The notes below the pieces were generated by a model. The model did no database searches. It had not been told where the DNA came from and worked only from the letters and a program-made list of their open reading frames with translations. A program made the translations under genes and the position numbers. Below are positions 1,764-49,048 of a stretch of 64,000 bases of DNA, piece by piece (the first letter of the stretch is position 1; each line of letters starts with the position of its first letter). The stretch spans positions 1,054,001 to 1,118,000 of the forward strand of contig AP021857.1 of assembly GCA_017347485.1 (NCBI GenBank), read 5' to 3'. This stretch comes from Candidatus Desulfobacillus denitrificans. GTDB lineage: Bacteria > Pseudomonadota > Gammaproteobacteria > Burkholderiales > Rhodocyclaceae.

Positions 1764-2554
1764 GAATTGTCCTGGGGCTCGAGTACGACGGCGCCGCCTT
1801 CGCCGGCTGGCAGACACAGCCGCAGGGCAACACCGTGCAGGATGCGGTGGAGCGGGCGCTGGCCGAAATCGCCGGCGCGCCGGTGCGCACGACCTGCGCC
1901 GGCCGCACCGATGCCGGGGTACATGCCGCGGCCCAGGTCGTGCATTTCGACACTCCGGCGGCCCGTCCGGAGAACGCCTGGGTGCGCGGCGTGAATGCGC
2001 ACCTGCCGGACAGCATCGCCGTGCGCTGGTCGCGCGTGGTGGCGGACGATTTCCATGCGCGCTTTTCCGCACGATCGCGCAGCTACCGCTACGTGCTGGT
2101 CAATCATGCCGTGCGTCCCGCCCTCATGCATGGCCGGGTCGGCTGGTTCCATCTGCCGCTCGACCTTGCGGCCATGCAGGCAGGTGCCGCGCATCTCGTC
2201 GGCGAACGGGATTTTTCCGCCTTCCGTGCCGTCGAGTGCCAGGCCAAGACGCCGGTGAAGACGCTGCACCGTGCGGAAGTGCGTCGGCAAGGCGACTGTG
2301 TCATTTTCGACTTTCACGCCAGCGCCTTTCTGCACCACATGGTGCGCAACATGGTCGGCGCCCTCGTCTATGTCGGCAAGGGTGCGCACCCGCCGGAATG
2401 GATCGCCGAACTGATCGCCAGCCGCGATCGCAGCCTGGCGGCGCCGACCTTTTCCCCCAATGGCCTGTATCTCTCCGGCGTCGAGTACGAGGCGCGCTGG
2501 CAGTTGCCCCTGAATGGCCGTATCATCGCGCCTTTCGATCCGCTTTCCCTCTGA
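1760..2554 (+). CDS. truA: tRNA pseudouridine(38-40) synthase TruA
   Basis: TruA converts uridines 38-40 in the tRNA anticodon arm to pseudouridine. The predicted protein has 264 residues, the usual family length. The catalytic Asp (about residue 51) lies in the RTDAGVHA motif, and the N-terminal LEYDGAAFAGWQ signature and the C-terminal FLHHMVRNMVGAL motif are present. The GTG start at 1760 is chosen because it forms a GTGA overlap with the upstream stop and places the conserved N-terminus immediately after it. trpF follows within 2 bases of the stop, so this is one operon. Confidence 0.95.
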   Translation: MRIVLGLEYDGAAFAGWQTQPQGNTVQDAVERALAEIAGAPVRTTCAGRTDAGVHAAAQVVHFDTPAARPENAWVRGVNAHLPDSIAVRWSRVVADDFHARFSARSRSYRYVLVNHAVRPALMHGRVGWFHLPLDLAAMQAGAAHLVGERDFSAFRAVECQAKTPVKTLHRAEVRRQGDCVIFDFHASAFLHHMVRNMVGALVYVGKGAHPPEWIAELIASRDRSLAAPTFSPNGLYLSGVEYEARWQLPLNGRIIAPFDPLSL

Positions 2555-2556
2555 CA

Positions 2557-3180
2557 TTGCCCCGCACCCGCATCAAGATCTGCGGCATCACCCGTCCCGA
2601 GGATGCCCGCGCCGCGGTCGAACTGGGCGCGGATGCCCTCGGCCTGGTCTTCAACGAGCCCAGCCCGCGCCATGTCAGCCTCGAGCAGGCTTGGGAGATC
2701 GCCCGCGTCGTGCCGCCCTTCGTCACCCTGGTCGGCCTGTTCGTGAACGAGACCAAGCTCACGGTGCGCCGCGTCATGGAGGCGGTGCCGATCCAGCTGC
2801 TGCAGTTTCACGGCGACGAGGAAGAGTCGTTCTGCCGTTCCTTCCATGCCCCGTACATAAAAGCGGCGCGGGTGAGGCCGGGCCTCGATTTGGTAAAATA
2901 CGCAGAGTCCTATCCCACTGCGCAGGGCCTGTTGCTCGACGCCTACGTCGAGGGCTACGGCGGCGGCGGCAAGACCTTCGACTGGTCGCTGATCCCGCCG
3001 AGCCTGCCGCTGCCGGTGATCCTGTCGGGCGGCCTGGAGGCCGGCAATGTGGCCGAGGCGGTGCATGCCGTGCGGCCGTGGGCGGTGGATGTCAGCAGCG
3101 GGGTGGAAGCCGCCAAGGGAATCAAGGACGCTGGCAAAATCGCCGCGTTCATAGCTGGAGTAAAGCATGCAGATGTATGA
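2557..3180 (+). CDS. trpF: Phosphoribosylanthranilate isomerase
   Basis: TrpF performs the Amadori rearrangement of phosphoribosylanthranilate in tryptophan biosynthesis. The protein has 207 residues in a single (beta/alpha)8 barrel. The catalytic Cys (about residue 9, KICGIT) and catalytic Asp (about residue 128, LLLDAY) are present, as are the phosphate-binding LSGGL and DVSSGVE motifs. There is no ATG at the expected position. The TTG at 2557, two bases after the truA stop, is the start that preserves the conserved beginning RIKICGIT. The 3' end overlaps the trpB start by 14 bases. Order F-B-A places three late tryptophan genes together. Confidence 0.93.
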
Positions 3181-4366
3181 CCTGCCCGATGCGCGCGGCC
3201 ATTTCGGCCCCTACGGCGGCACCTTCGTCGCCGAGACGCTGATCGAGGCGCTCGACGAGCTCAAACGCGCCTACGCCGAAGCCCGCGCCGATCCTGCTTT
3301 CAAGGCCGAGTTCGAGTACGAACTCCAGCACTACGTCGGCCGTCCCAGTCCGATCTATCACGCGAAACGCTGGTCGGAGCTGCTCGGCGGGGCGCAGATC
3401 TACCTCAAGCGCGAGGATCTCAACCACACCGGCGCGCACAAGGTGAACAACTGCATCGGCCAGGCCATGCTGGCGCGCCGCATGGGCAAGCCGCGCGTCA
3501 TCGCCGAGACCGGCGCCGGACAGCACGGCGTCGCCACCGCCACCGTCGCCGCCCGCTACGGCATGGAATGCGTGGTCTACATGGGCAGCGAGGACGTCAA
3601 GCGCCAGGCCGCCAACGTCTACCGCATGAAGCTGCTCGGCGCCCGCGTGGTGCCGGTGGAATCCGGCTCGAAGACGCTGAAAGACGCGCTGAACGAGGCC
3701 ATGCGCGACTGGGTGACCAACGTCGGCAATACCTTTTACATCATCGGCACCGTGGCCGGCCCGCATCCCTACCCGATGATGGTGCGCGACTTCCAGTCGG
3801 TGATTGGCGAGGAGTGTCGCGTGCAGATGCCGGAACTGGCGGGACGCCAGCCGGACGTCGTCATCGCTTGCGTCGGCGGCGGCTCCAATGCCATGGGCAT
3901 TTTCTACGACTATATCCCCGATGAATCCGTGAAGCTGGTCGGCGTCGAGGCGGCCGGCTACGGCCTGGCCAGCGGCCATCACGCCGCCTCGCTGGTCGCC
4001 GGCAGGCCCGGCGTGCTGCACGGCAACCGCACCTATCTGCTGCAGGACGAGAACGGCCAGATCATAGAGACGCACTCGGTTTCCGCCGGACTCGACTATC
4101 CCGGCGTCGGCCCTGAGCACGCCTGGCTGAAGGACAGCCACCGCGCCGACTATGTCGCCGTCACCGACGACGAGGCGCTGGCCGCCTTCCATGCCCTGTG
4201 CCGCTACGAGGGCATCATCCCGGCGCTGGAGTCCGCGCACGCACTGGCCTACGCCGCCAGGCTGGCGCCGACGCTGCCGAAGGACAAGCTGCTGCTGGTG
4301 AACCTCTCCGGCCGCGGCGACAAGGACATGCACACCGTGGCGGAGAAATCGGGAATCCAGTTCTAA
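3167..4366 (+). CDS. trpB: Tryptophan synthase beta chain
   Basis: TrpB is the PLP-dependent beta subunit that condenses indole with serine to give tryptophan, working with TrpA as an alpha2-beta2 complex. The protein has 399 residues. The PLP-binding Lys (about residue 92) lies in HTGAHKVNN, the GGGSNA phosphate-binding loop is near residue 236, and the SGRGDKD motif is at the C-terminus. The start overlaps trpF. A second in-frame ATG two codons downstream is an alternative start. A GGAG-like ribosome site lies about 10 bases upstream. Confidence 0.97.
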
Positions 4367-5187
4367 TGTCGCGCATCCGGAAAACCTTCGAGCAACTCGC
4401 CGGTCGGGGGCGCAAGGCCCTGATCCCCTTCATCACCGCCGGCGATCCCGAGCCCGCCCAAACCCTGCCGCTGATGCGTGCGCTGGTGGCCGGCGGCGCC
4501 GACATCATCGAGCTGGGCGTGCCCTTTTCCGACCCGATGGCGGACGGCCCGACCATCCAGCGCGCCTCCGAACGGGCGCTCAAGCATGGCATGTCGCTAC
4601 GCCGGGTGCTCGCCATCGTGCGTGAATTCCGTGCCGGCGATGTCGACACACCGGTGGTGCTGATGGGCTATGCCAATCCGATCGAGGCGATGGGGATCGA
4701 CGCCTTCGCCGCCGAGGCGAAGCAGGTGGGTGTGGATGGCGTGCTGGTGGTGGATTACCCGCCGGAGGAGTGTGCGGACTTCGCGGCAAAGCTAAAGGCC
4801 GTCGGCCTCGATCCGATATTCCTGCTGGCGCCGACATCGACCGACGAGCGCTTCGGCCAGGTGGCCGAGGTCGGCAGCGGCTACATCTACTACGTTTCGC
4901 TGAAGGGCGTCACCGGCGCCGGGCATCTCGATCTCGACGAAGTGGCGCGGCGCATTCCGGCCATCCGCCAGAAGGTCGGCATGCCGGTCGGCGTCGGCTT
5001 CGGCATCCGCGACGCTGCAAGCGCGCGGCGCATCGCCGCCGTGGCCGACGCGGTGGTGATCGGTAGCCGCATCATCGAGGAGATCGAGAAAAGCCCGCGC
5101 GAGCAGGCTGCCGTTAATGTCACGGCATTCCTGCGCGGCATCCGCGCTGCGCTCGACGAGCCGGCCGTTTCCAAGGAGGCGTCATGA
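4366..5187 (+). CDS. trpA: Tryptophan synthase alpha chain
   Basis: TrpA cleaves indole-3-glycerol phosphate to indole and glyceraldehyde 3-phosphate, channelling indole to TrpB. The protein has 273 residues. The catalytic Glu49 ([10 protein letters not shown]) and Asp60 are at the same positions as in the enterobacterial enzyme, and the C-terminal phosphate-binding GFGI motif is present. The ATG shares one base with the trpB stop (TAATG). The gene overlaps accD by 4 bases in an ATGA junction. Confidence 0.97.
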
Positions 5188-47821: not shown

Positions 47822-48271
47822 ATGCAAGTGATTCTGATGGAAAAGGTGGTCAACCTCGGCAATCTGGGCGATGTCGTCAAGGTGCGCGACGGTTTTGCGC
47901 GCAACTTCCTCATCCCGCAGGGCAAGGCCAAGCGAGTTACACCGGAGAACCTGGCCGAGTTCGAGAAGCGCCGCGCCGAATTGGAGCGTCAGCAGGCCGA
48001 GAAACTGGCCGGCGCCCAGGAGAAAGCCGCCAAGTTGGAAGGCCTGATGGTGCAAATTACCCGCAAGGCTGGTGTGGATGGCCGCCTGTTCGGCTCCGTC
48101 ACCAACTTCGACATCGCCGACGCGCTGAAGGGGCTGGGCCACGAGGTCGAGAAGGCCGACATCCGCCTGCCGCAGGGCCCGTTGAAGATGATCGGAGATG
48201 CCCAGGTGCAGATTGCCCTTCATAGCGATGTGGTGGTGAACATCACCGTGTCGGTGCTGGGCGAGCACTAA
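47822..48271 (+). CDS. rplI: 50S ribosomal protein L9
   Basis: L9 binds 23S rRNA near the base of the L1 stalk. The 149-residue protein has the N-terminal signature [20 protein letters not shown], the connecting helix and the C-terminal domain. A strong bidirectional-looking terminator follows 25 bases after the stop, directly before the group II intron. Confidence 0.98.
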
Positions 48272-48296: not shown

Positions 48297-48327
48297 AAAA
48301 GGGCCGCTGGAAAGCGGCCCTTTTTTT
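48297..48327 (+). terminator. Terminator after rplI, probably bidirectional
   Basis: GGGCCGCT (48301-48308) and AGCGGCCC (48313-48320) pair around GGAA, flanked by AAAA on the left and seven T on the right. The symmetric A and T flanks allow termination in both directions. The intron begins 2 bases after the T run. Confidence 0.92.
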
Positions 48328-48329
48328 GT

Positions 48330-48957
48330 GTGCGCCCGGCACGGGCGCACTCTTATGGGTGAAAGTCCCACCGTAAGTTGATTACAGCGAACGAAGCGAA
48401 GCGCAACTGCATGAGGGTGACCGATTGTGGGGAGGAGGCGTGGAGCGAAACTGCGAGCCGATGGACAAGAACCGGATAGAAGGCGTTGCCGAGCAGGGCG
48501 AGCGGGCACAATTCCGTGAAGCTCTTGTGATCAAGGCGAGGCGGCGTAAATCTGGCGGTTGTGCAGTGAAGGAGTGCGTTCTTACCCGGGGAGATCTCGC
48601 CTCATGGCTGAAAGGCCGACGTTGAAACACGGAGCGAGGAGTCAGCAGCGGCCATAGTAGCTGCCTGTATGGGGTGAAGGGCCAAAGGAATAGAAGGAGT
48701 TGCCCTGTGATTCTCGGGTTGGACGGTCTCAGATGTTCGCGCCAGCGAAGCTCGCCGATACGGTGAAGAGAGTGAAGCCCAAAACACTTCGGCAGGGAGA
48801 AACCAAACCCGGCGAATTAAAGACCAGCATCTTCAGGCGGCATGCAGGAACTGTCTCCTGCGAATCGACCTCAACTATTCCAACCGCCCGGTGCGGACCC
48901 GCATGCCGGGTGGTGTGGGAGGGGTCGGTCAGGTTCCCTGACCGCCCCTATCCCGAT
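48330..48957 (+). mobile_element. ORF-less group II intron
   Basis: A 628-base element with group II intron hallmarks. It opens with GTGCG (GUGYG consensus) in a 9-bp hairpin (48330-48350). Domain I-like sequence with GGGTGAAAGTCCC follows, then conserved-looking blocks before the usual ORF position (GTCAGCAGCGGCCATAGTAG). It ends in a domain V hairpin, a domain VI hairpin with a bulged A, and a terminal AT. The length is far below the roughly 2 kb of introns with a reverse transcriptase, and no maturase motifs are seen. It lies immediately downstream of a terminator hairpin, the site type used by group IIC introns, although class assignment is not proven. It could only move with a maturase supplied in trans. 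Confidence 0.8.
48883..48957 (+). other. Group II intron domains V and VI and 3' splice end
   Basis: Domain V is a 32-nt hairpin (48883-48914) with a 9-bp lower stem starting ACCGC, a 2-nt TG bulge (48904-48905) and a short upper stem. The catalytic triad would be CGC at positions 3-5. The tetraloop reads GACC instead of GNRA. Domain VI follows, with a stem GGTCAGG/CCTGACC and a candidate branch-point A at 48950, seven bases before the 3' end. Confidence 0.7.
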
Positions 48958-48958
48958 T

Positions 48959-49048
48959 TGGCGGAGAGAGAGGGATTCGAACCCTCGATACGTTTTACCG
49001 TATACACACTTTCCAGGCGTGCGCCTTCGACCACTCGGCCATCTCTCC
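48959..49048 (-). tRNA. tRNA-Ser (anticodon GGA)
   Basis: The minus strand folds as a class II tRNA of 90 nt with encoded CCA. The acceptor arm is GGAGAGA with TCTCTCC, the D-arm GCCGAGTGGTCGAAGGC, the anticodon loop CTGGAAA with anticodon GGA, a long variable arm and the T-arm GGTTCGAATCC. It reads UCC and UCU codons. Its 3' CCA end lies one base from the 3' end of the group II intron, which separates it from the rplI-side terminator. A TAGAAT -10-like box lies upstream at 49060-49065. Confidence 0.97.

Follow-up and report, generated by a model that had tools for sequence, protein, structure and literature searches.

The window (the whole 64,000-nucleotide stretch of DNA analysed, from contig AP021857.1 of Candidatus Desulfobacillus denitrificans) carries the ribosomal protein gene rplI with its Rho-independent terminator, a 628-base intron without an open reading frame (ORF), and a tRNA-Ser gene that converges on the intron from the opposite strand (Table 1). 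The first-pass annotation had described an ORF-less group II intron that begins 2 nt past the T run of the rplI terminator and stops one base short of the tRNA-Ser CCA end, and both distances were reproduced. Homologues of rplI with more than 83% identity also adjoin tRNA-Ser in congeners.

Table 1. Features of the intron locus (window coordinates) and of related intron arrays (coordinates within the loci named)
Feature	Position	Strand	Basis
rplI (ribosomal protein L9) CDS, upstream of the intron	47822..48271	+	ORF; name from sequence
rplI Rho-independent terminator, insertion target	48297..48327	+	12-pair hairpin 48297-48324, T run to 48327
IBS1 (TTGT), last four 5'-exon bases	48326..48329	+	4/4 pairing with EBS1 loop
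ORF-less group IIC intron, GTGCG...CCCGAT, 628 bases	48330..48957	+	Rfam; homologues with the same ends elsewhere
Ribozyme domain I core (Rfam RF02001, group-II-D1D4-3)	48411..48581	+	106.9 bits, E 6.9e-21
EBS1 (ACAA)	48508..48511	+	pairs with exon TTGT
End of D1-D4 core, domains II-III and start of IV (RF01998, D1D4-1)	48598..48682	+	
Conserved structured domain IV replacing the RT gene; putative docking site for an RT acting in trans	48676..48881	+	
Domain V	48883..48914	+	Rfam match and fold
Domain VI with bulged branch-point A at 48950	48916..48955	+	Rfam match and fold
tRNA-Ser (anticodon GGA), converging on the intron	48959..49048	-	ARAGORN, Rfam
Head-to-tail IIC arrays behind one terminator	L156 about 2550-4600; L193 1-2800; also L159, L147		

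Group II covariance models match the intron, in agreement with the initial assignment. The catalytic core of domains I-IV is present, with RF02001 recognized at 106.9 bits and RF01998 at 34.4 bits, the latter under a lowered threshold and against a gathering score of 35. The model of domains V and VI (Intron_gpII, RF00029) matches positions 48882-48957 with 36.9 bits (E 2.2e-5; lowered threshold, gathering score 40), and this match terminates exactly at the proposed 3' end of the intron. The D5/D6 fold is canonical (z -5.8), and A48950, the bulged adenosine that had been expected in domain VI, lies in an unpaired UA bulge 8 nt before the 3' end. No reverse transcriptase (RT) is encoded within the 628 bases, as originally described, and the element was confirmed to be a complete, ORF-less group IIC intron.

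Both boundaries proposed from the sequence are confirmed, because 12 related introns at other sites have identical ends and because congeners lack the insert; no copy with different boundaries was seen elsewhere. The intron-free order of rplI, terminator and tRNA-Ser is found in seven congeners (G010, G073, G540, G541, G543, G544, and G546), where the terminator is conserved and the spacer between it and tRNA-Ser measures about 2-27 bp, which bears out the proposed insertion behind the rplI terminator. The empty site of G543 reads GCGGCCCTTTTTGTTGGCGGAGAG, and the corresponding flanks in the window are GCGGCCCTTTTTTTGT before and TTGGCGGAGAG after the intron, so the insertion is clean. The tRNA-Ser gene is located elsewhere in five other congeners. 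Among 16 genomes of the genus, long relatives of the intron are present only in G541 besides the genome of the window, while congener G547 keeps a 38-bp intron fragment. It was also observed that the interval between tRNA-Ser and the SRP RNA gene varies within the genus, from about 0.1-0.2 kb to about 4.5-6 kb (L126, L127, and L129-L131 compared with L122-L125, L128, and L132), as if this interval were an insertion hot spot.

The hairpin of the rplI terminator folds on both strands. Read from the tRNA side, only four T follow the stem, and the terminator scan called no minus-strand terminator at this hairpin or inside the intron; antisense read-through from tRNA-Ser into the intron is therefore plausible. 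As proposed earlier, it is possible that the insertion parted tRNA-Ser from a terminator that also stopped the tRNA transcript, and the tRNA-Ser precursor could plausibly read into the antisense strand of the intron.

The genome of the window is complete in one contig of 3.145 Mb and holds the intron in a single copy, with no second domain V match. A full-length, maturase-bearing relative, which the first-pass annotation had suggested looking for in the same genome, was not found, as no RVT_1 (reverse transcriptase) match occurs anywhere in this one-contig sequence, the intron included. The copy would thus be immobile now unless an RT arrives.

Previous studies showed that group IIC introns characteristically insert behind terminators (PMC8919778, PMC3898094). 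The intron of the window shows the traits of this class, including terminator-side insertion and a short IBS1 that pairs with EBS1. Over 30 unique intron-exon pairs of the family, 94 of 120 EBS1-IBS1 positions pair (shuffled mean 66.0, p 5e-5), and in the relative of G080 both partners are changed, with EBS1 GCAA facing exon TTGC. Poor pairing is mostly seen in introns at the second or third position of a head-to-tail array, which directly follow another intron, as would be expected from repeated insertion at one terminator. In other genera, twelve relatives, RT-bearing or ORF-less, all lie behind T runs, with a clear terminator hairpin in almost every case; likewise, the full-length and ORF-less relatives examined lie directly behind a terminator-like T run, with the exception of downstream array members and a few degenerate or truncated copies. 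The class C RT/maturase without endonuclease domain is missing from both the intron and the genome, while homologous RT-bearing introns exist. The ribozyme and its targeting are IIC-like, and the autonomous element is absent here.

Beyond the first-pass annotation, the intron is one member of a family that spans several genera and shares a conserved domain IV. A 628-base ORF-less intron in G148, a genome of the same taxonomic family, is 81% identical from end to end and lies behind another terminator, and the ORF-less intron of congener G541 shares 80% identity. We searched one genome per species (84,980 species) for the ORF-less architecture, defined as the end of domain III, 190-220 bases, and domain V, and obtained 36 matches in 34 stretches of 18 named genomes of alpha-, beta- and gammaproteobacteria. 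The hosts include Zoogloea, Neorhizobium, Rhizobium, Herminiimonas, Massilia, Polaromonas, Burkholderia, Cupriavidus, Paraburkholderia, Pseudomonas, Azonexus, Dechloromonas, and Sideroxydans, among others. Because the pattern fixes the end of domain III, domain V and the spacing, their conservation follows from the selection of the sample, which does not apply to the interior of domain IV.

Copies with identical core and domain IV are found at different terminators within one genome, for example in Zoogloea and Neorhizobium; the alphaproteobacterium Neorhizobium huautlense DSM 21817 contains six near-identical ORF-less copies at different terminators (L142, L148, L161, L162, L164, and L170). 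On contig JADJBR010000004.1 of a Zoogloea sp. MAG, two ORF-less introns followed by an RT-bearing intron stand head to tail behind one terminator. The ORF-less copies of the Zoogloea arrays are 653 bases long and directly joined (CCCGAT then GTGCGC), and the RT-bearing intron in L193 has 1841 bases. Such arrays suggest repeated insertion at one terminator without target immunity. A 2015 review described ORF-less introns as rare among bacteria and noted one exception that lacks a related intron-encoded protein (IEP) (PMC4424553), and in a 2022 survey 281 of 2,381 introns were without an IEP (PMC8919778). No account of a cross-genus ORF-less IIC family was found in the literature searched, which lay mostly outside subscription journals.

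The interior of domain IV, which is outside the search pattern, still aligns across all copies. Its RNAalifold consensus contains 48 pairs in 22 distinct sequences, with 94.9% of cells paired compared with 34-45% in slid controls; two-sided changes occur in 29 of the 48 pairs, and none of 500 shuffles reaches any of five measures. Domain IV was also considered as a decayed ORF, which was rejected since no frame is kept open across the family and the pairing is compensatory. A covariance model of domain IV (R1) scores 181.9 bits on the window. The same model gives 33-65 bits on RT-bearing introns, in the 5' part of their domain IV and over the start of the RT gene, indicating that the ORF-less introns did not invent this domain; an initial impression from BLAST, that domain IV is a novelty absent from RT-bearing introns, was discarded, as R1 found the diverged version over the RT start. 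Judged from these matches, the ORF-less introns appear to have retained the front of this domain, while the gene that followed it was lost. Global alignment of domain IV with RT-bearing introns was unreliable and was not used for this comparison.

Scanning with the domain IV model across the class returned the window and one weak match only, and across the order ORF-less-like scores were obtained in three genomes (the window's, G148, and G170), with weaker, RT-type scores elsewhere. A weak match in G414 lies inside an aldehyde dehydrogenase-like gene and was dismissed as chance. Another match, in G201 (L134 899-963, minus strand; 31 bits, 65 nt), is intergenic, between PEP-CTERM-like genes; the rest of the intron is absent there, and this stand-alone piece is either a relic or another use of the domain.

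In intron Ll.LtrB, the intron-encoded protein is bound by DIVa, an RNA element located where the intron ORF begins. That intron is of a different class, and domain IV of the present family is likened to DIVa by position; by this analogy, domain IV may be an RT-binding element, with RT binding putative.

Trees of domain IV and of the ribozyme core differ. In the front of domain IV (168 columns), all ORF-less sequences fall on one side of a branch that separates them from the RT-bearing introns, with support 100/100, while in the core (455 columns) the ORF-less introns are not one clade, and a single clade is rejected (AU p 0.005). The core of the window's intron is most similar to the cores of RT-bearing introns in G541, G080, and G039 (92-93%), and the nearest sequences to its domain IV are those of ORF-less introns from a Sideroxydans and a Burkholderiales MAG (87%). 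The simplest reading of these alignments would be one ancestral loss of the ORF, followed by exchange of the core with resident RT-bearing introns, although other readings are allowed by the coding constraint on the RT-bearing sequences and by the shortness of the alignments. The mismatch between the two trees suggests that parasite and helper exchange modules.

A group II RT above the curated cut-off was detected in 13 of 20 genomes carrying the ORF-less form, and none over the cut-off was found in Neorhizobium huautlense, G148, G556, G557, G564, G565, and G568, in a search that covered contigs of at least 3 kb of the draft hosts, so that RTs on short repeat contigs may be missing from this count. 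The PF00078 match of G148 was rejected as a helper RT; it lies in a protein of 1242 aa that does not reach the cut-off for group II RTs. Congener G541 contains an ORF-less copy together with an RT-bearing intron whose core is 92-93% identical to that of the window. In the RT-bearing intron of G080 (L033 2318-4153), the RT gene is broken into two frames (231 aa and 320 aa), and some relatives may thus be inactive in spite of carrying an RT gene.

We consider it probable that the element is a non-autonomous IIC intron of a family moved in trans by the RT of resident relatives, and that the copy in the window is stranded. On this account, the ORF-less intron would have lost the RT and kept the whole ribozyme, the terminator targeting, and the domain IV RNA. 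The RT/maturase for splicing and for reverse splicing behind Rho-independent terminators would come from a related IIC intron of the same cell that still carries an RT. The domain IV RNA would be kept because it is the RT-binding element, which overlaps the start of the RT gene in the autonomous form. The copy of the window would have inserted behind the rplI terminator via pairing of EBS1 ACAA with IBS1 TTGT, and would now be stranded because its genome has no RT. We infer mobilisation in trans, RT binding by domain IV, and splicing from this body of comparisons; the element looks like a counterpart of parasitic non-autonomous retroelements, not a dead fragment.

The single copy and the genome without RT would equally be expected if an ordinary RT-bearing IIC intron had its gene deleted in this genome and is now decaying, and two domain IV pairs that every other aligned member keeps are indeed broken in the window. 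However, two broken pairs of 48 is the typical count for the family, and domain V, domain VI, and EBS1 are intact. Moreover, domain IV is constrained by compensatory changes and is common to ORF-less introns of nearly equal length, other genera included, such as those of G148 and G541, which makes such a dead remnant unlikely.

The failure to detect a group II RT in the genome of the window and in several multi-copy hosts also fits an intron that only splices and was spread without any RT, via recombination or host enzymes, like C.te.I1. This is very unlikely, as precise insertion at many terminators with EBS1-IBS1 pairing is indicative of reverse splicing and reverse transcription, group II RTs are present in most hosts, and one array includes an RT-bearing intron. 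Least probable is the idea that domain IV has some other function, for the host or for the intron itself, for example as a small RNA or in stabilising the fold, and that the element was domesticated beside tRNA-Ser: the strong structure and conservation of the domain speak for it, but each genome has its copies at unrelated loci, this copy is missing altogether from congeners, and a diverged domain IV also exists in RT-bearing introns.

The closest precedent for a non-autonomous intron moved in trans is found in Thermosynechococcus elongatus, where mobilisation of ORF-less TeI3 introns by TeI4 IEPs was shown experimentally, and domain DIVa was noted as an IEP-binding region (PMC2882425). There, the ORF was lost from domain IV once, DIVa was kept with covarying loops, and copies multiplied, much as is proposed for the present family. 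The TeI3/TeI4 introns differ in that they are of another class, have an IEP with an endonuclease domain, occur in one genome, and retrohome to specific sites, whereas the family described here is IIC, terminator-targeting and distributed over many genera, with a domain IV that forms one clade, cores that do not, and trans-mobility that is inferred. Multiple copies at different sites are likewise a trait of this family, while the genome of the window has one copy. A related IEP in the same genome is absent here, and group II RTs are present in the 13 other hosts mentioned above and in congener G541. The ORF is absent from the present intron, and the front of domain IV, the putative RT site, is common to RT-bearing introns according to R1.

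The IIC introns of Oceanobacillus iheyensis and Bacillus halodurans (B.h.I1) likewise lie behind Rho-independent terminators and have a short IBS1 and the same architecture (PMC4424553, PMC3898094, PMC8919778). Their domain IV contains an RT gene, whereas in the present intron a conserved RNA domain of about 205 nt stands there by itself. C.te.I1 of Clostridium tetani is also ORF-less in a genome without a related RT, but it is a single independent intron that acts in alternative splicing in an S-layer gene (PMC4424553), whereas the intron of the window has many relatives and RT-bearing kin.

More tentatively, the family may be a long-lived, horizontally moving, non-autonomous IIC family of SINE-like character, in which a domain IV derived from a single ORF loss acts as an RT-capture module, and the cores were repeatedly swapped with those of local helpers; we regard this extended reading as possible but doubtful. 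If it were true, core swapping would keep the parasite fitted to any RT it met across bacterial classes. Terminator-side insertion accounts for the tolerance of the host towards such elements beside rplI and a tRNA gene. The family makes it possible to test if IIC introns are bound by the RT at domain IV, and in what way bacterial RTs are parasitised by non-autonomous retroelements.
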